A stretch of DNA of 34,348 nt from Pseudobdellovibrionaceae bacterium (GTDB lineage Bacteria > Bdellovibrionota > Bdellovibrionia > Bdellovibrionales > UBA1609), in contig JAAOIK010000026.1 in NCBI GenBank assembly GCA_015163855.1, positions 1 to 34,348 of the forward strand, given 5' to 3'. Below, piece after piece: positions 247-24,523 of this stretch. The notes beneath the pieces were generated by a model. The model was not told the origin of the DNA. It did no database searches and saw only the letters and a program-made list of their open reading frames with translations. A program made the translations under genes and the position numbers. Numbering within the stretch: position 1 is the stretch's first letter; every line of letters starts with the position of its first letter.

Positions 247-278
247 TTATTTTTGGTATTTTGGTCGATAGATTTACT

Positions 279-1130
279 ATGAAAGGGGTTTTAAACACTA
301 GAGGTCAGGCCACAATAGAGGCAGTTTTAATGCTGGTTTTGGGTGTGTCCATGGTTTTGGGTTTAATGGCGGGTTTTAATAAGCAATTTGAGAGGTTTAC
401 AGAACTTTACTTTGGCGAGTACTTTGCCTGCTTAATCGAAAATGGACAGCTCCCTTATTTACAATACGAAACTAAGGATGAGTGTGGAAAAATACTGGTT
501 TCTTTTTCTTCACTCAGCGGAAAGGACAAGGATAATTCCACAAACAATAATTCAAAAGGCTCTTCGTCTTCGTCGAAAGAGGGCTCTAAAAAATCGGGCT
601 CCTTGGCGGGCAGAATAAGGCCCACGCAAGGAATAAACGAAAGTGGCTTGTCTAAGAACGCTAACCGTTTTTCTGTAAAAAGAGGAGGCTCGTCGGGGTC
701 GGCGGCGACTAAAAATGGAGGCGGGGAAAAAAAGGCTAATGATGCCGAGGGTGGTGGTTACGGAGGGCAACAGGTTGGCACTTATGGTAAGTTATCTGGT
801 GGGAATGATGGAGGGGTGCAAATTATTAAAATTAAGCGAAGAGCTAAGGGCAAGGACCGAGGGTCTTCTTACGGTTTGTATAAAGACCCAGGGGACAAAA
901 AAAATGCCTCAAAAATTGCCGTGAAAAAACCAGAGCAGGGCAACGCTAATAAAGCAAGCACGCGTTTAAAAATAGAACGAACCATAGCTAAAGTAAAAGA
1001 AAAAAAAGAAGAGAAGTTTTCATTGAATTTTTCTAGCATTATGCGATTTTTAATTATTGCAGCCTTGATAATTATCATCATTATTGTTATTGGTGGGCAA
1101 CTGTTAAGTATTAGTAAATCTTTCGAGTAG
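279..1130 (+). CDS. TadE/Flp-type prepilin-like membrane protein with long Ser/Gly/Lys linker and C-terminal TM
   Basis: The 283-residue product begins MKGVLNTRG|QATIEA. A short basic leader, then Gly9, then Glu at +5 before a hydrophobic helix (about residues 12-31), is the pattern of class III (Flp/TadE-like) prepilins processed by a prepilin peptidase. Residues ~80-240 are low-complexity and rich in Ser, Gly, Lys and Asn. A second, Ile-rich helix lies at about 254-275. Two Cys (51 and 69) follow the first helix. ATG 279 is preferred over an in-frame TTG at 261 because it gives a normal prepilin leader; neither has a clear ribosome binding site. The stop is three bases before nadE. A second C-terminal TM is unusual for a pilin, so an envelope-anchored pseudopilin-like or scaffold role is only a guess. 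The coding DNA looks more GC-rich than its neighbours because of the linker. Confidence 0.75.
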   Translation: MKGVLNTRGQATIEAVLMLVLGVSMVLGLMAGFNKQFERFTELYFGEYFACLIENGQLPYLQYETKDECGKILVSFSSLSGKDKDNSTNNNSKGSSSSSKEGSKKSGSLAGRIRPTQGINESGLSKNANRFSVKRGGSSGSAATKNGGGEKKANDAEGGGYGGQQVGTYGKLSGGNDGGVQIIKIKRRAKGKDRGSSYGLYKDPGDKKNASKIAVKKPEQGNANKASTRLKIERTIAKVKEKKEEKFSLNFSSIMRFLIIAALIIIIIIVIGGQLLSISKSFE

Positions 1131-14716: not shown

Positions 14717-15718
14717 ATGTTTTTGAAGAAAAAAAAATTGGTTTTAGATATAGGGGCCAACACTGTAAAAGCTGCTGTTTTTTTAAGCACCAGCAAGTCT
14801 GCCAAGTTGCTAGACTATTCTAGTGTTTCTATCAAACAAGCAGGCTCTGTTGCAAACGCTATTTCTGTGGCTAAAAATAAATTATCGTTTAAATTTAAAA
14901 AGGCCAATGTTGCTGTGGGCGGGCGCGAAGTTTTTATTCAACACATTACAGTAGAAAAATTTCCTGAAGCACAGTGGGGCCAACAGTTAGTCGCAGAGGC
15001 AGAGGCTTATGTGCCTTACGAAGCAGAAATGGCAAATATTAATTATGTTTATTTAGGCTCATCCATAAATACAAATAAAAATGAATTTTTATTAATTGCA
15101 ACACCTAAGCAGTTAATCGCACAAATACAACAAGACTGTTTAGAGGCAGGCTTACGGTGTGAAAATGTGGAGCCATCAAGCATATCTTTAGTTAACGGCT
15201 TTGAATATAATTACGGAATTTTGCAAAATCAAAATATTGCTATATTAGAATTTGGAGAAGAAAGAAGCACTTTTGTTGGAATGTTAAATGGAAGAATTTA
15301 TTTTGTAAAAAACATCGAATTTGGTTTATCTAATTACGACCAAGCTTTGTCTAGGCAATTAAGTTTGTCTATTGCCGAAGCAGAAAGTTTAAGAAAAAAT
15401 TTTTGTCTTAACAAAGAGGTGCCAGAAGGAACTAAAGAAATAGTTCGTTCCTTACACGGCAATTTGCGCTCAGAGCTAGAAACAGCAATGGAGTTTATTA
15501 AAGGGGTTTTGTCAAAAGAGCCACCTACTAATTTATTTTTAACAGGGGAAGGAATAGCTTTGCCAAATTTGTTACAAGAAATTTCAGAAATTGTTCCTTG
15601 CGAGATTATTAATATTTTTTTAAATACAAAGTATGATGAACAAAAGATAGAAAAATCAAGATTAGAAGAAATTAATTCTACAGGTGTTACCATAGCAGGA
15701 TTAGGAAGTAACCACTAA
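14717..15718 (+). CDS. pilM: Type IV pilus assembly ATPase-fold protein PilM
   Basis: The 333-residue cytoplasmic, actin-like protein starts KKLVLDIGANTVKAAVF (phosphate-1 motif) and contains AILEFGEERSTFVGML (phosphate-2-like) and FLTGEGIALPNL (adenosine motif). PilM binds the cytoplasmic N-terminus of PilN and links the inner-membrane alignment complex to the pilus motor. It opens a five-gene pilMNOPQ run with very short gaps. The 54 bases before it are AT-rich and may hold a promoter, but none is convincing. Confidence 0.94.
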   Translation: MFLKKKKLVLDIGANTVKAAVFLSTSKSAKLLDYSSVSIKQAGSVANAISVAKNKLSFKFKKANVAVGGREVFIQHITVEKFPEAQWGQQLVAEAEAYVPYEAEMANINYVYLGSSINTNKNEFLLIATPKQLIAQIQQDCLEAGLRCENVEPSSISLVNGFEYNYGILQNQNIAILEFGEERSTFVGMLNGRIYFVKNIEFGLSNYDQALSRQLSLSIAEAESLRKNFCLNKEVPEGTKEIVRSLHGNLRSELETAMEFIKGVLSKEPPTNLFLTGEGIALPNLLQEISEIVPCEIINIFLNTKYDEQKIEKSRLEEINSTGVTIAGLGSNH

Positions 15719-15724
15719 GCACAT

Positions 15725-16315
15725 ATGATAAAAATAGATTTACAACAAGGGGTAGTTCAAGAAAAAGGAGATTTTCGCGAAGAAGGCACGGAAACAAGTG
15801 AGCTTATAAAGGCAGTTGGCTTTGGAGCTTTAAAAGTATTTTTTTTTGTTATCTTTTTTTTAGGGGTCTACACCTATGAACAAAGAGAGTTAGATGCATT
15901 AAATGTAATTTTAGCAGAAAAAGAAAATATGGAAAGAGTAATGCAACAAAAAATTATTAAAAAAAAATTATTAGTTAAAAAGTTAAAAAAAACTAAGTCA
16001 GATTATATCGATGTAGAAAAAAAAGTATATATGCTTAAAGATATTGCAAAGCTTAGGCTTATGTTTATAAAGGCAATGGCCACTTTAAATGGATTTCGTG
16101 AAGAAAATTTATGGTTTAGAAGTGTGGATTACAACCAAGGTTTATTGACCATTCACGGATACACACTTAGTAAAAAAATTTTTGATCAATTTTTACAAAA
16201 CATTCGAGTTAGAGAAAAAAGCTTTGCAGGATTATTAGTAAAGGAAACGAAGTCAGAGAAACAAAAAGGTATAAGTGTTCGATCCTTTTATTTGGAAATA
16301 AATTTATTGAATTAG
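15725..16315 (+). CDS. pilN: Type IV pilus alignment protein PilN
   Basis: The 196-residue bitopic protein has a cytoplasmic N-terminus starting MIKIDLQQG, where family members carry the PilM-binding INLLP-type motif; here it is diverged. One membrane helix lies at about 31-49. A Lys-rich coiled coil (~52-105) and a compact ferredoxin-like periplasmic domain follow. It starts six bases after pilM. Identity rests on position between pilM and the pilO-like gene plus this layout. Confidence 0.88.
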   Translation: MIKIDLQQGVVQEKGDFREEGTETSELIKAVGFGALKVFFFVIFFLGVYTYEQRELDALNVILAEKENMERVMQQKIIKKKLLVKKLKKTKSDYIDVEKKVYMLKDIAKLRLMFIKAMATLNGFREENLWFRSVDYNQGLLTIHGYTLSKKIFDQFLQNIRVREKSFAGLLVKETKSEKQKGISVRSFYLEINLLN

Positions 16316-16324
16316 GAAAATGGC

Positions 16325-16891
16325 ATGGACATAAATTTTAGTATATTTCGTTCTATTCAGATAGGTGTGTTGCTGGCCGTTGTTTATTATGTCAGTTATT
16401 TTAACAACGGAGATGGCGTTAAAGAAAAAACTAATAAAGTGGTATTTAATGTTTTAAAAAAACGACAAGAATTAAAGAAGGTGATATTGGAAGAAAAGGA
16501 ATTAACAAAGGTTTCAAAGCTGTTTGATTATCATGCCATACGGGCGCCGAAGGTTTTACACCTTTTAAAAACTTATTCTGAAAGCAGCGACCTTTCTTCT
16601 TTTATATCTCGACAGGCTCAGCAGCTAGACTTGAGTATCTTATTATTGGGAAGAGTTGTGGTGTCTAAAGAGAAGGAGTGGGAAGTAAAAGAAATTCAAA
16701 CCTCTTTGCAAGGTAGTTATCACAAGCTTATGAAGTTTATTGCGAATATTCAAAATGAAGAAAAATTAGTTATTATTAAAAAAAGTACACTGCAGATTGT
16801 GGGGGGAGGATCTTCTTTTGGCGTCGAAGATGTTTTACAAGCCAGTTTGTCAGTAAAGTTATATAAATTTGCCAAACGAAGAGAAGAATAA
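16325..16891 (+). CDS. pilO: Type IV pilus alignment protein PilO
   Basis: The 188-residue protein has a short cytoplasmic N-terminus, one membrane helix (~9-27), a coiled-coil region with many Lys/Glu (~33-65) and a periplasmic alpha/beta domain containing SLQGSYHKLMKFIANIQNEEKL, the part best conserved in PilO. It pairs with PilN and contacts PilP. An AGGA site lies nine bases before the ATG. Confidence 0.87.
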   Translation: MDINFSIFRSIQIGVLLAVVYYVSYFNNGDGVKEKTNKVVFNVLKKRQELKKVILEEKELTKVSKLFDYHAIRAPKVLHLLKTYSESSDLSSFISRQAQQLDLSILLLGRVVVSKEKEWEVKEIQTSLQGSYHKLMKFIANIQNEEKLVIIKKSTLQIVGGGSSFGVEDVLQASLSVKLYKFAKRREE

Positions 16892-16907
16892 GTTGAATGG
16901 GATAATT

Positions 16908-17504
16908 ATGAAAACCGTTTTATTAGCCTGCTTTAGTATATCGTTTTTGTTCGCAAGTGAATTAATGGCAAATAATTCGCAGCAACGCTTTATAGAAGCA
17001 GTAAAAAGTTTAAATGGAAACTTAAGTCGTTATAACGATGACTCAACAAATTTAAGCCCATTTAAAGAAAGCGAGCTTTTAAAAAGTAAACAGAAAAAAG
17101 GCTTGAAGAAATTTTTAGATGACCCGTTACGAAGTGCTAATGTAGAAGATTATAAACTTAAAGGCTTAATGTGGAAAACAAACATACCAAAGGCAATTGT
17201 TAAAGATACGCTTGGTAAAATGCATATTTTAAAAGTAGGAGATTATCTTGGGGTTAATCAAGGGCAAATTATCCACATTCGAGAGGGAGAAGTAGTAGTT
17301 TTAGAACTGAAAGAAGGCGGGGGCGATGATGGTCCGACATATAGTACCAAGGTGCTAACTTTTTCTGAACCGCAGTTGAATGGCAAAGAAAAAAACAAAC
17401 AGATAGGGCAGGGAAAGCAGGCAGAACAGGCGGAACAGGAAGAACAGGAAGAACAGGCAGAGCAGGAACGGCAGGCAGAGCAGACAGGCAGAAAAAACAG
17501 ATAA
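16908..17504 (+). CDS. pilP: Type IV pilus protein PilP with Gln/Glu repeat tail
   Basis: From ATG 16908 the product has 198 residues. It starts with an export signal (MKTVLLACFSISFLFASELMA) and no obvious lipobox, although PilP is usually a lipoprotein. The beta-sandwich domain (~75-145) includes LKGLMWKTNIPKAIVKD and LKVGDYLGVNQGQI, typical of PilP, which bridges PilNO and the PilQ secretin. The C-terminus (172-192) is seven tripeptides of the type (A/E)(E/R)Q, then TGRKNR. An in-frame TTG at 16869 overlaps pilO and lacks support. GGGA lies seven bases before the ATG. Confidence 0.88.
   Translation: MKTVLLACFSISFLFASELMANNSQQRFIEAVKSLNGNLSRYNDDSTNLSPFKESELLKSKQKKGLKKFLDDPLRSANVEDYKLKGLMWKTNIPKAIVKDTLGKMHILKVGDYLGVNQGQIIHIREGEVVVLELKEGGGDDGPTYSTKVLTFSEPQLNGKEKNKQIGQGKQAEQAEQEEQEEQAEQERQAEQTGRKNR
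17421..17483 (+). repeat. Seven 9-base tandem units in the pilP 3' end
   Basis: Units of the form G(C/A)(A/G)GAACAG, such as GCAGAACAG and GAAGAACAG, repeat seven times without interruption. Each unit encodes one tripeptide in the pilP frame, so gain or loss of a unit would not shift the frame. Units three and four are identical. Confidence 0.85.
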
Positions 17505-17542
17505 TTAATAAGCAGGTATAAAAATGAAACACGGGAGAGAAG

Positions 17543-19633
17543 ATGTTACAAATTTGCGCTAAATTTATATTACTAGGAATGATGTTATTTGCTTCTTCCT
17601 GTTCTTTATTTCAAAAAACTAAAACAAGGCAGGCAGTATCTGTAAATGATTTATTACAAGAAGATATAGAAAATTCTAGTAAAGCATCAATAGGTAGTGC
17701 AAATTCTTTTGAAGATGTTGATAACGGGGAATTAAGTTTAGAAGACGATTCGGTAGCTGAGGGAAATACCTCTACTTCACAAGATGGTGACGAATTAAGT
17801 TTAGAAGACGATTTGGTAGCTGAGGGAAACACTTCTGCATCACAAGGCAATGACGAGTTAAGTTTAGAAGACGATTTTAAAACGCAAGAAGAAGAACGCA
17901 CAACAAAGGCCCCCGTGGCTAGCTTTGATGCCAAAGAAGAAGAAAATATTAAAGAACACACTTCTTTAAAAACAACGGATTTGCAAGGTATTACCTACAA
18001 GCAAGAAGGAAACTTAGAAATAGTATCTATCAAAGGCGAGGGAAAAATTGATTATGTCACGCGCATTAACAAAAAAAATAATCAGCTTATTGTGCAAATT
18101 AAAAATGCAATATTGCCGGAAAAACTAAAAAGACCTTATTTTATGAAAGATTTTACAGGGGGCTCTGTTGTTGCTGTAAATTCCTATCAAAATTCTCCAG
18201 CAGATACAGCTAATATTGTATTGCAGTTACGCAATGGAGTAAAATTAAAGCCGCAAATTATTAACATAGGTTCCATGTTAGAGATTCGCTATCCATTAAG
18301 GGCAACACAAATAGCACAAAACAAAAATACTATTAAAGGGAAGCTTGGCTCTTCTCCAGACCAGAAAAAAGGGACATTGGTGGATTTTTTCTTAGGGGGA
18401 GGAAGTTATTATGGACACTCTATCTCTTTACAGTTTGAAGACATACCCGTCCGACAGGTTGTTGCATATATTGCTACAGAGGTTGGAGCTAATATTTTAG
18501 TAGACGATACAGTTAATGGAAAAATTTCTTTAAAGTTAAGAAATATTCCGTGGGACCAAGCTTTAGCTTTAGTTTTAAAATCTAAAGGCTTGGGGTATAT
18601 ACAAGAAAAGGGAGGAGTTCTTCGTATTTCTAGTTTAGAAAATTTAAAAAAAGAAGAAGAAGCTTTAGTGGCTATTATTAAGTCAAAACAAAGCTTAACG
18701 CCATTGTCTGTAAAAGTTTTGCCAATCTCCTTTGCTAAGGCCTCTGAGTTAGCGGCTAAGCTTAAGGTATTTTTAACTCCTAAAAGAGGAAAGCTTTCTT
18801 CGGATACAAGAAGTAACACTTTGATTGCTACAGATGTTCCAGAGGTGTTGAAAAAAATTACCTTGTTAGTTAAAAATCTAGATCGTGCTCCTAAACAAGT
18901 TTCTATTGAAGCTAAATTTATTGAAGCTAACCAATCTTTTTCTAAAAACTTAGGGGTGAACTGGAGTTTTTCGGGAGGAAGGGTAGATATTAATGGCCTT
19001 CAAGGGGCAAACGGCCCTATTTCTGTGGGTTTAGGTTCGGGAGGAATTCGCCCTGTTCCGCCAAGTAGTTTGCGAGGTCTTGCAGGTTCTGTTGGTTTAA
19101 CTTTAGGTAGTTTTAAATTTTTAGGAGATTTATCCAGCATTTTAGCCATCGCGGAACAAGACCAAGTAGTTAAGGTAATTTCTACTCCTACGGTGGTGGT
19201 TTTGGATAAACAAAAAGCAAGTATTACTAACAAAGGAGAAAACTTATCCATATCGCGTACCGAACAAGACGGCACGATTACAGAAAGCGTTACAAGAACA
19301 CCTATCAAATTACAATTAGATGTTTCGCCACAAATTGCTGCAGACGGAAGTATTTTATTAGATGTTAATATTTTGCGCGAGTTTGCAGGCGGTGCCATCA
19401 GTACGGGAAATAACGCTAAGCCTATTAACTCTCGTTCGGTAAAATCCAAAGTGCTTATTAAAAACGGCGACACCTTGGTTATTGGAGGAATTTTTCAAAA
19501 AGACACATCTAAAGGAAATTCGGGAGTTCCTTTTTTAAGCAAGTTACCTTTTTTTGGATGGATGTTTAAATACCAATCAGAAGAAGAATCTAAAAATGAA
19601 TTAATGGTATTTTTAACGCCAAAAATTTTATAA
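17543..19633 (+). CDS. pilQ: Type IV pilus secretin PilQ, lipoprotein-type with acidic repeats
   Basis: The 696-residue outer-membrane secretin forms the pilus exit channel. The N-terminus reads MLQICAKFILLGMMLFASSC, a lipobox with Cys20. Residues 63-111 hold an acidic ELSLEDD repeat. One AMIN domain (~147-255) is followed by the STN domain (~290-365, with FEDIPVRQVVAYIATEVGANI), a secretin N1-type domain (~385-455) and the secretin core, ending with LVIGGIFQKD, the conserved VPFLSKLPFFGWMFK signature and the terminal NELMVFLTPKIL. A GGGAGAG site precedes the ATG. A lipid anchor on PilQ itself is unusual in pilus secretins. Confidence 0.95.
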   Translation: MLQICAKFILLGMMLFASSCSLFQKTKTRQAVSVNDLLQEDIENSSKASIGSANSFEDVDNGELSLEDDSVAEGNTSTSQDGDELSLEDDLVAEGNTSASQGNDELSLEDDFKTQEEERTTKAPVASFDAKEEENIKEHTSLKTTDLQGITYKQEGNLEIVSIKGEGKIDYVTRINKKNNQLIVQIKNAILPEKLKRPYFMKDFTGGSVVAVNSYQNSPADTANIVLQLRNGVKLKPQIINIGSMLEIRYPLRATQIAQNKNTIKGKLGSSPDQKKGTLVDFFLGGGSYYGHSISLQFEDIPVRQVVAYIATEVGANILVDDTVNGKISLKLRNIPWDQALALVLKSKGLGYIQEKGGVLRISSLENLKKEEEALVAIIKSKQSLTPLSVKVLPISFAKASELAAKLKVFLTPKRGKLSSDTRSNTLIATDVPEVLKKITLLVKNLDRAPKQVSIEAKFIEANQSFSKNLGVNWSFSGGRVDINGLQGANGPISVGLGSGGIRPVPPSSLRGLAGSVGLTLGSFKFLGDLSSILAIAEQDQVVKVISTPTVVVLDKQKASITNKGENLSISRTEQDGTITESVTRTPIKLQLDVSPQIAADGSILLDVNILREFAGGAISTGNNAKPINSRSVKSKVLIKNGDTLVIGGIFQKDTSKGNSGVPFLSKLPFFGWMFKYQSEEESKNELMVFLTPKIL
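17729..17875 (+). repeat. 63-base in-frame tandem repeat in pilQ
   Basis: A 63-base unit (21 codons beginning ELSLEDD(S/L)VAEGNTS) occurs twice, at 17729-17791 and 17792-17854. A third partial copy covers ELSLEDD (17855-17875). The copies are near identical at the DNA level, which suggests recent duplication. Confidence 0.85.
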
Positions 19634-21442: not shown

Positions 21443-23089
21443 ATGAAACCACGCACATTAAAATCACCAACAGGAAGCCAGTTACATTGTAAGTCATGGA
21501 TTCAAGAGGCGGCTTACCGAATGATACAAAACAACTTAGACCCCGAGGTAGCAGAAAACCCCGAGGAATTAATTGTCTATGGAGGTTTGGGAAAGGCTGC
21601 GCGTAATTGGGAAGCTTTAGAAAAAATTTTAGAAGCATTAAGGCAATTAGAAAATGACGAAAGTTTATTAATTCAGTCGGGTAAGCCTGTGGGCGTTATT
21701 AAAACACACACAAATGCCCCCAGGGTTTTAATTGCCAATTCTAATTTAGTGCCTAAGTGGGCTACTTGGAAACACTTTGACGAGTTGGATAAAAAATCTT
21801 TAATGATGTATGGTCAAATGACTGCAGGGTCTTGGATTTATATTGGCTCGCAGGGGATTGTGCAAGGAACTTACGAAACTTTTGTAGAATTGGGCCGTAA
21901 ACATTTTAATTCTAATTTAAAAAATAAAATTATTGTAACCGCAGGCTTAGGAGGAATGGGAGGAGCCCAACCTTTAGCAGGAGTATTTGCTGGAGCTTGT
22001 GTGCTAGCTATCGAAGCCGACGCGCATAGAATTCAAAAACGACTAGAAACTAAATATATTGACGAGGTGGTAGAAGATTTAAACGAAGCCATTGCAAAAA
22101 TAAAAGCTTATGCCAGTAAGGGTGAGGCCAAGTCTATTGCTTATTGCGGAAACATGGCCGAAGTGTTGCCTTTATTAATTAAGCACAATTTTATACCCGA
22201 TATTTTAACCGACCAAACCTCCGCCCACGACCCATTAAGAGGTTATATTCCTGCAGGTTATACTATTGAAGAAGCAAATCGTTTGCGAAATAATCAGCCC
22301 GAACAATATTTAAAAAAATCTCGCGCAAGTATTGCTACTCATGTAAAAGCCATGCTAGAAATGAAAAAAAAGGGAAGCATTGTTTTTGACTACGGAAATA
22401 ATATTCGCGCAGTGGCTAAAGAAGAGGGCGTGAAAGAGGCTTTTCAAATTCCTGGATTTGTTCCCGAATATATTCGTCCGTTATTTTGCTTAGGAAGTGG
22501 TCCGTTTCGTTGGGTGGCTTTGTCGGGAGACCCCCAAGACATTAAAGTTACCGACGATGCCTTGCGAGAATTATTTCCTCACAAAAAAGCCTTAATGAAT
22601 TGGCTAGACATGGCAGAAAAAAGAATTGCCTTTCAAGGTTTGCCTGCACGCATTTGCTGGCTAGAGTATGGAGAGCGAGCTTTGGCGGGATTAAAGTTTA
22701 ACGAACTAGTAGCTAGTAAAAAATTAAAAGCACCCATTGTTATTGGGCGCGACCATTTAGATTGCGGTTCGGTAGCCTCCCCCAACAGAGAAACAGAAAA
22801 CATGAAAGATGGTTCTGACGCTGTGGCCGACTGGCCTTTGTTAAATCTATTAAGCAATACCGCCTGCGGTGCTTCGTGGGTTAGTTTTCATCATGGAGGA
22901 GGAGTAGGAATGGGCTATAGCTTACACGCAGGACAAGTTATTGTGGCCGACGGAACTCCAGAAGCAGCAGAAAGATTACAAAGAGTATTAACCGCCGACC
23001 CAGCTACGGGTTTGTTTCGACACGCCGATGCTGGTTATGCACAGGCTCAAGAAGCTTGCAAAAAACACAAGTTACAAAGTTTTTTTTAA
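21443..23089 (+). CDS. hutU: Urocanate hydratase
   Basis: The 548-residue NAD-dependent enzyme converts urocanate to imidazolonepropionate in histidine breakdown. Signatures are [16 protein letters not shown] (NAD binding), [13 protein letters not shown] with the active-site Cys, and the long conserved block [16 protein letters not shown] through [11 protein letters not shown]. Length is typical (about 555). hutI follows after three bases, so the two steps are coupled. hutH and the downstream formiminoglutamate genes are not in the window. Confidence 0.97.
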
Positions 23090-23092
23090 ATT

Positions 23093-24523
23093 ATGAGTTT
23101 TACATTATTTTATAATATTTCTGAATTACTAAGTTTAAAAGAGGTGTCTGAAAAACAGGGGCGCCATATTACATCAAAAGATTTTGTAATTACCAAAAAG
23201 GCTGCCATTATTTCTTACAAAGGAAAAATTGTTTGGGTAGGAAAATATGCTGCAGTTAAACCGCGCTTAATCAAACAATTAATGCAAATTAATAAAATTA
23301 CGCAAACTTTACAAAGGCATTCGCTAAGCCAAGCTTTTATTATGCCTGCTTTTGTGGAATGCCATACCCATTTATTATTTGCAGGTAATCGCGCCTCCGA
23401 GTTTAATTTACGGCAAAAGGGAATGTCTTATTCTGACATTACTAAAAAAGGGGGAGGAATTTTATCCACCGTTAAGGCAACGCGAAAGTTATCTTTATTA
23501 GAGCTTAAGCGTATGGCACAAAAAAGAGCCGAAGTTTTTTTATCTCAAGGAGTAACTAGTTTAGAAGCAAAAAGCGGATACGGTTTAAACTTATCTAGCG
23601 AAATAAAAATGTTAGAAGCCATTAAATCTATTAAAAAATTAAATACTAAAGCAACGCTTTTAGCCTTACACACTTTGCCTAAGGAGTTTTCTTCTAAAGA
23701 TAAATATTTTCAATGGGTAATAAATCAAGTTCTTCCCAAAGCAGTAAAAAAACAAGTAGTGGATAGGGTAGATATTTTTGTAGAGCAAATGGCTTTTAAC
23801 AAAAAGCATATGACGGCTTTATTTAAACAGGCTAGCGATTATAATTTGGGTTTAACTGTACATTCAGACCAATTAAGCCCTCAAGGAACTTCTTGTTTGG
23901 CCTCCCAGCAAGGGGCGTCTTCGGTGGACCATGTTAACTTTGTTAGCGATTCAGAAATTAAACAGTTGTCTAAAGCTAATGTTAGCAATGTGTTTTTGCC
24001 AGGAGCAGATTTTTACTTAAAAATGCCATACCCTCAGGCGCGTAAATTTTTAGATGCAGGGGCTAGGGTGGCCTTGGCCACAGACTACAACCCAGGCACT
24101 TGCCCTTGTAATAATATCGAATTTATCGGGCTATTGGCTCGTTTAGAAATGAATATGACCATCGAAGAGGTGGTTGCAGCCTACACCGTTTCTGCAGCTT
24201 ATGCTTTAGGTATGCAAAATACAGTGGGCTCTTTGCAGGTGGGAAAGCAGGCCGATTTTATCAGCTTAAATAAACCTTACGATGAGTTATTTTATTCTAG
24301 CACCCTAAAAAACCCAGTGGTAAAGTCGGTTTATCGATTAGGTAGGTTGGTTGCATCTAATGGGCAAGTAGTAGTAGAGTATGCATTGCTATTAATGATT
24401 TCGGTAATACTAGCCATGACGCTAGTAAATATGACAGTAAGTAGAAATCCAGACAGCCCAGGCTTTATTATAAAAAAATGGGGAGACATTTTAAAAGTGA
24501 TTGGCGAGGACACACAAAAGTAA
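23093..24523 (+). CDS. hutI: Imidazolonepropionase with prepilin-like C-terminal tail
   Basis: Residues 1 to ~420 are a full imidazolonepropionase of the amidohydrolase fold. It shows HTH (His91, His93) in FVECHTHLLFAG, SGYGL (161-165), His192, His257 in TVHSDQLS and Asp331 in ATDYNPGT, the metal and catalytic set. The product is formiminoglutamate. The enzyme normally ends soon after a phrase like VKSVYRLG, at ~405-415 residues. Here the frame continues to 476 with SNG|QVVVEYALLL, a hydrophobic helix, and a tail ending KWGDILKVIGED. Gly424 followed by Glu at +5 and Tyr is the Flp-type prepilin cleavage pattern. In-frame GTG 24317 or TTG 24347 could start a separate 68- or 58-residue protein. 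The enzyme call is firm; the meaning of the tail is open. Confidence 0.92.
   Translation: MSFTLFYNISELLSLKEVSEKQGRHITSKDFVITKKAAIISYKGKIVWVGKYAAVKPRLIKQLMQINKITQTLQRHSLSQAFIMPAFVECHTHLLFAGNRASEFNLRQKGMSYSDITKKGGGILSTVKATRKLSLLELKRMAQKRAEVFLSQGVTSLEAKSGYGLNLSSEIKMLEAIKSIKKLNTKATLLALHTLPKEFSSKDKYFQWVINQVLPKAVKKQVVDRVDIFVEQMAFNKKHMTALFKQASDYNLGLTVHSDQLSPQGTSCLASQQGASSVDHVNFVSDSEIKQLSKANVSNVFLPGADFYLKMPYPQARKFLDAGARVALATDYNPGTCPCNNIEFIGLLARLEMNMTIEEVVAAYTVSAAYALGMQNTVGSLQVGKQADFISLNKPYDELFYSSTLKNPVVKSVYRLGRLVASNGQVVVEYALLLMISVILAMTLVNMTVSRNPDSPGFIIKKWGDILKVIGEDTQK
24347..24523 (+). CDS. Possible nested small Flp/TadE-like prepilin in the 3' end of hutI
   Basis: If translated from TTG 24347, the product would be a 58-residue protein with a six-residue leader (MVASNG), then QVVVEYALLL, one membrane helix and a polar tail. 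An AGG at 24340-24342 is only four bases before the TTG, a short spacing. The alternative GTG 24317 would give a basic 16-residue leader typical of class III prepilins but has no ribosome binding site. It is listed separately because the tail does not belong to imidazolonepropionase. It is equally possible that only the long fusion is made. Confidence 0.35.
   Translation: MVASNGQVVVEYALLLMISVILAMTLVNMTVSRNPDSPGFIIKKWGDILKVIGEDTQK

Follow-up and report, generated by a model that had tools for sequence, protein, structure and literature searches.

The window analysed here, a stretch of DNA of 34,348 nucleotides, carries a real, conserved and lineage-specific fusion of two known genes, in which hutI, the gene of imidazolonepropionase, reads in frame into that of a small type IVb pilin which is very probably Flp4. 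Its novelty lies in the architecture rather than in a new family; our literature search turned up no report of a HutI-pilin fusion, nor any publication about the genome of TC_Bin3, the sister genome that shares it. The first-pass annotation of this DNA had proposed a real enzyme-pilin fusion, and this proposal is now supported by: 1) a reading frame conserved in two species; 2) two halves that are both intact and under purifying selection; and 3) the presence of two prepilin peptidase genes.

The fused reading frame and its HutI half

The fused ORF (23093-24523, + strand) starts with ATG and translates without a break into 476 residues. In a profile search, the hutI model TIGR01224 matched residues 36-415 with 344.4 bits vs. 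a curated cut-off of 298.15, and the HutI C-termini of relatives align at the equivalents of residues ~415-424; the 52 residues beyond Gly424 (425-476) form an extra part that ordinary HutI does not have, as the first-pass annotation had held in reporting ~52 extra codons after a complete enzyme domain. Alignment with 2bb0, the solved structure of B. subtilis HutI, revealed that the fused protein keeps the metal-ligand and substrate motifs HTH, KSGYGL, the H of ALHTLP and the H of VHSDQ, together with the DH of SSVDHV and the D of ATDYNPG, the active residues among them being those general to the family. The HutI half is intact and is predicted to have imidazolonepropionase activity. As no stop codon separates the HutI and pilin parts, ribosomes translating hutI must continue into the pilin, and HutI and Flp4 are probably made as one chain. 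The parts of the frame and the adjoining gene are, in window coordinates:

21443..23089, + strand: hutU (urocanate hydratase), the next pathway gene, 3 bp upstream of hutI (Urocanase N, Rossmann-like and C domains)
23093..24346, + strand: HutI (imidazolonepropionase) domain, residues 1-418 (TIGR01224; 2bb0 alignment)
24347..24364, + strand: junction residues 419-424 (LVASNG), shared by the HutI end and the pilin leader (relatives' HutI C-termini and pilin N-termini aligned)
24347..24349, + strand: TTG codon 419, candidate internal in-frame start (TTG in both species; SD-like match at very short spacing)
24362..24367, + strand: predicted prepilin peptidase site Gly424/Gln425 (G-Q invariant in 21 family members)
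24365..24520, + strand: predicted mature Flp4-type pilin, residues 425-476 (homology to stand-alone flp4 genes; helices in models)
24521..24523, + strand: stop codon of the fused ORF

Upstream of hutU, at a distance of <2 kb, window 14717-19633 holds PilM-, PilN-, PilO-, PilP- and PilQ-type genes of a type IVa pilus, with PilO falling just under its cut-off.

Identity of the pilin tail

The tail signal reads RLVASNG, the predicted cut point, and then QVVVEYALLL, with G424 followed by E429 (+5) and Y430 (+6). This is the type IVb (Flp) prepilin pattern of GXXXXEY and a hydrophobic stretch; in structure models, a membrane helix spans residues 423-448, followed by a loop and a C-terminal helix at 457-471. 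The class III prepilin pattern pointed out in the first-pass annotation (Gly424 at -1, Glu429 at +5, Tyr430 at +6) is now joined by homology to a family, since the tail matches stand-alone genes with E-values down to 1.9e-17 in single-genome searches and at 30-56% identity. Among 21 aligned sequences, eight pilin columns are invariant (G, Q, E, Y, L, L, W, D), including Gly -1, Gln +1, Glu +5 and Tyr +6, and both fused copies retain all eight; with such an aligned stand-alone family behind it, the match of the tail is beyond chance. Among the curated pilin models, the Pfam model Class_IIIsignal scored 14.3-14.7 bits on the tail, under its cut-off of 23.7. However, most stand-alone relatives likewise fall under the Pfam pilin cut-offs, and Flp_Fap at cut-off gave no match in the six genomes searched, Bdellovibrio among them, which argues that the curated models are insensitive here. 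Naming the tail by these models was dropped, as the scores were too weak, and a fold search with a pilin model gave no usable match.

To place the tail among named pilins, we relied on the two genomes of 3,782,950 bp (G071) and 2,657,893 bp (G042), which by their lengths we take to be those of Bdellovibrio bacteriovorus HD100 and B. exovorus JSS, respectively. In HD100, flp4 is bd4000, an unannotated ORF between bd2719 and bd2720, and in JSS it is a11q_1811 (PMC5430801). Bdellovibrio flp4 lies outside the Tad locus and encodes a type IVb pilin; its expression falls in the attack phase and did not respond to FliA, and its deletion abolishes predation (PMC5430801). We interpolated gene numbers between pilin matches taken as flp1 and flp3, which placed a11q_1811 at 1842.3 kb in JSS, where the hutI-linked pilin starts at 1843.2 kb, and bd2719/2720 at about 2651 kb in HD100, where the hutI-linked pilin lies at 2641.4 kb; no other pilin match was found near either expected position. 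Given this agreement, the fused tail is very probably Flp4, an identity of flp4 that is positional. One loose end is that bd2719 has been called an RHS element (PMC3818213), and we saw none beside the hutI-linked pilin of HD100. The two fused tails are 50-57% identical to the HD100 pilin over ~50 residues.

A second copy of Flp4 was not found in the fused genome, where the remaining pilin-like matches are weak, lying within the Tad locus and at window 282-365. Two further proteins of class III or class III-like kind came to our attention. Beside TadV, L067 8586-8843 encodes a small one with an Flp4-like layout (GQAVVESILL ... KPWKKIDNVI), possibly a paralogue. Window 261-1130 encodes a protein of 289 aa whose start is class III-like (RGQATIEAVLMLVLG), whose middle is long and of low complexity, and which has a C-terminal membrane helix. 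No Pfam family could be assigned to it; ORFs of similar size and with the same type of start occur in G009 (L071 5536-6411) and G071.

Distribution, selection and probable origin of the fusion

A query of 59 genomes with the whole fused protein returned HutI-only matches (residues ~4-420) and matches to separate small ORFs (~420-474), the latter mostly shortly downstream of hutI on the same strand. Across Bdellovibrionales the pilin has a gene of its own, about 60-100 codons long, and gene maps of relatives usually run from hutI through a gene of ~150 aa to the small pilin, followed in many cases by an acyltransferase and an FGGY kinase. Scanning of named GTDB genomes yielded 52 loci, nearly all titled Bdellovibrionales, Bdellovibrionaceae or similar, with the pilin as a separate ORF at every locus but one, the exception being TC_Bin3 with its HutI-pilin fusion; this genome and the sister genome G001 are one and the same, present in both surveys. 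When hutI and the pilin are on one strand, 529-1770 bp lie between them at the GTDB loci. We also observed flp4 and hutI on opposite strands in two genomes (L102 3926-4180, L116 2014-2265), so the pair can be rearranged. The middle gene is exemplified by:

L160 9593-10057, L048 5069-5536 and L111 3517-3981: conserved gene of ~150 aa between hutI and flp4 in most relatives, with no convincing Pfam family

A search with one query did not find this gene in the two fused genomes, and it was not found in five other relatives tested.

HutI matches are present in 35 of the 47 family genomes, and only two of the 47, both of the window's genus, are fused, the other 45 (33 with a HutI match) being unfused. 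In the first-pass annotation, a tail encoded separately in relatives was regarded as a possible sign of an assembly error; the tail is indeed a separate gene in relatives, but this does not refute the fusion, since both genomes of the genus covered here, each a different species, agree in having it. Both are drafts of ~50 contigs, as would suit a misassembly or chimera that joined a separate hutI and flp4. We nevertheless consider such a slip very improbable because the two species, at 75% protein identity over residues 1-475 and with no stops, have the same junction, frame and neighbours on separate contigs.

Between the two species, identity is 77% in HutI and 65% in the tail, and dN/dS is about 0.12 and 0.22-0.26, respectively, in a comparison whose synonymous sites are nearly saturated. 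When neutral evolution was roughly simulated at the four-fold divergence observed, the tail was left with ~13% identity and acquired a stop in 98.5% of runs, vs. the 65% identity and absence of stops observed. Both the tail and the HutI half are under purifying selection. These values bear on the idea that the tail is a leftover, with Flp4 function lost and the tail only anchoring HutI or being tolerated. While the loss of the flp4 start codon along with its own leader, as well as faster evolution than HutI, would fit that idea, the low dN/dS, the lack of stops and the retention of all family-invariant residues speak against it, as does the fact that reduced relatives without hutI still keep flp4, pointing to a lasting need for the pilin; in our judgement it is improbable. 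Four hutI-less relatives (G002, G014, G015, G020) also lack hutH yet retain flp4, which indicates that flp4 is retained on its own account. In both fused genomes hutH is present, and hutU adjoins the fused hutI; with hutU and hutH kept alongside hutI, and hutH lost where hutI is lost, hutI appears to be retained where its pathway is. Both halves of the fusion therefore seem to be in use. HutI-less relatives with genomes of 1.5-2 Mb (loci L038, L040, L041, L042, L043) carry flp4 alone, mostly beside other genes.

As to origin, the simplest and most likely history is that the genus ancestor, with an original order of hutI, the ~150-aa gene and flp4, underwent one deletion, at least ~0.5 kb long, that removed the hutI stop, the middle gene and the flp4 start. 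As judged by comparison with relatives, such an in-frame join would have cost little, leaving the HutI domain entire and Flp4 short of its start and a few leader residues. In the fused genome, a different contig carries the FGGY kinase that many relatives have after flp4.

Proposed processing of the fused chain

We lean, with some reserve, towards a hutI-flp4 fusion by deletion whose chain would be cut after Gly424 by a prepilin peptidase, with or without additional pilin started at TTG 24347. Owing to its class III signal, the chain would be anchored by its end in the inner membrane, with HutI on the cytoplasmic side. The genome harbors two A24 prepilin peptidase genes, one PilD-type with the A24 N-terminal domain (G000:C9) and one TadV-type inside the Tad locus (G000:C21); either enzyme, with its active site on the cytoplasmic side, could cut after Gly424, giving a ~46 kDa HutI ending in RLVASNG and a mature Flp4 of 52 residues for pilus assembly. 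Bdellovibrio, by comparison, has Flp4 and no TadV (PMC5430801). Prepilin leaders are cytoplasmic, are cut there by the peptidases and vary in length (PMC10191384), and a cytoplasmic enzyme can therefore in principle serve as leader. Against cleavage counts the implied leader of 424 residues, the distance of the motif from the initiator Met in the fused frame, compared with 5-20 residues in the usual Flp pilins (PMC5430801). The cut site lies a few residues past the HutI end, and the main doubt on cleavage is that the folded domain may get in the way of the peptidase; AlphaFold modelled precisely the junction of the fusion poorly (pLDDT ~50 for residues 400-430), and the model consequently says little on peptidase access. 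Whether the locus encodes a natural polyprotein, with the peptidase freeing a working cytosolic enzyme as the 'leader' of a predation pilin and one translation product serving both, is in our view evenly balanced.

Extra Flp4 might also come from an internal start, which would be compatible with the peptidase route. Of the two internal starts suggested in the first-pass annotation, we set GTG 24317 aside as a general start, since the sister species has CCA there, and TTG 24347 stands as a candidate, the only one before the motif that is conserved in both species. An unlikely but more substantial alternative to cleavage is that the chain stays uncut, HutI working with a pilin-derived membrane tail, and that functional Flp4 is made separately from TTG 24347 with the leader MVASNG. 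Only this start would bring the motif to six residues from the initiator Met, in a leader that resembles the MNKRG of the HD100 pilin. Among start-like codons, TTG 24347 falls within the top 12% and 7% for SD-like pairing upstream, but the best register leaves a spacing of 0, and TTG is often used for Leu here (110 of the 574 Leu codons counted). In a synonymous-constraint scan, the 13-codon window richest in conserved synonymous sites begins at codon 418, a signal that is not significant scan-wide (p about 0.4). The uncut-chain reading would also leave unexplained the fate of a pilin tail on every HutI molecule. Immediately ahead of the pilin part, a promoter scan of the + strand gave nothing convincing.

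If the favoured cleavage after Gly424 takes place, a prepilin peptidase would handle as leader a folded ~46 kDa enzyme, far beyond the usual 5-20 residues of Flp pilins, and a metabolic enzyme would be a by-product of pilin maturation. The fusion would link the predation pilin of Bdellovibrio to a pair of catabolic genes in a lineage whose genome, at 1.24 Mb, is strongly reduced, and flp4, unannotated in HD100, emerges as a persistent gene of Bdellovibrionales that outlasts hutI in other reduced relatives.

Compared with known systems, the fused ORF resembles HutI (TIGR01224; 2bb0) in its entire catalytic domain, its metal-ligand motifs and the adjoining hutU, and differs from the HutI of all relatives compared, except that of the sister species, in its pilin tail. 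With Bdellovibrio Flp4 it has in common the GQxVVEYxLL signal, the C-terminal part and the hutI neighbourhood; however, Flp4 there is encoded separately, downstream of the ~150-aa gene, in about 60-80 codons that include a short leader of its own, whereas here it is the C-terminus of HutI. The Flp1-, TadE- and TadF-type prepilins of Tad pili share Gly -1, Glu +5, Tyr +6 (in Flp) and a hydrophobic helix, and the fusion genome has a Tad locus with TadV; in contrast to these prepilins, the fused pilin lies outside the Tad locus, and an enzyme of 424 residues takes the place of the short leader.
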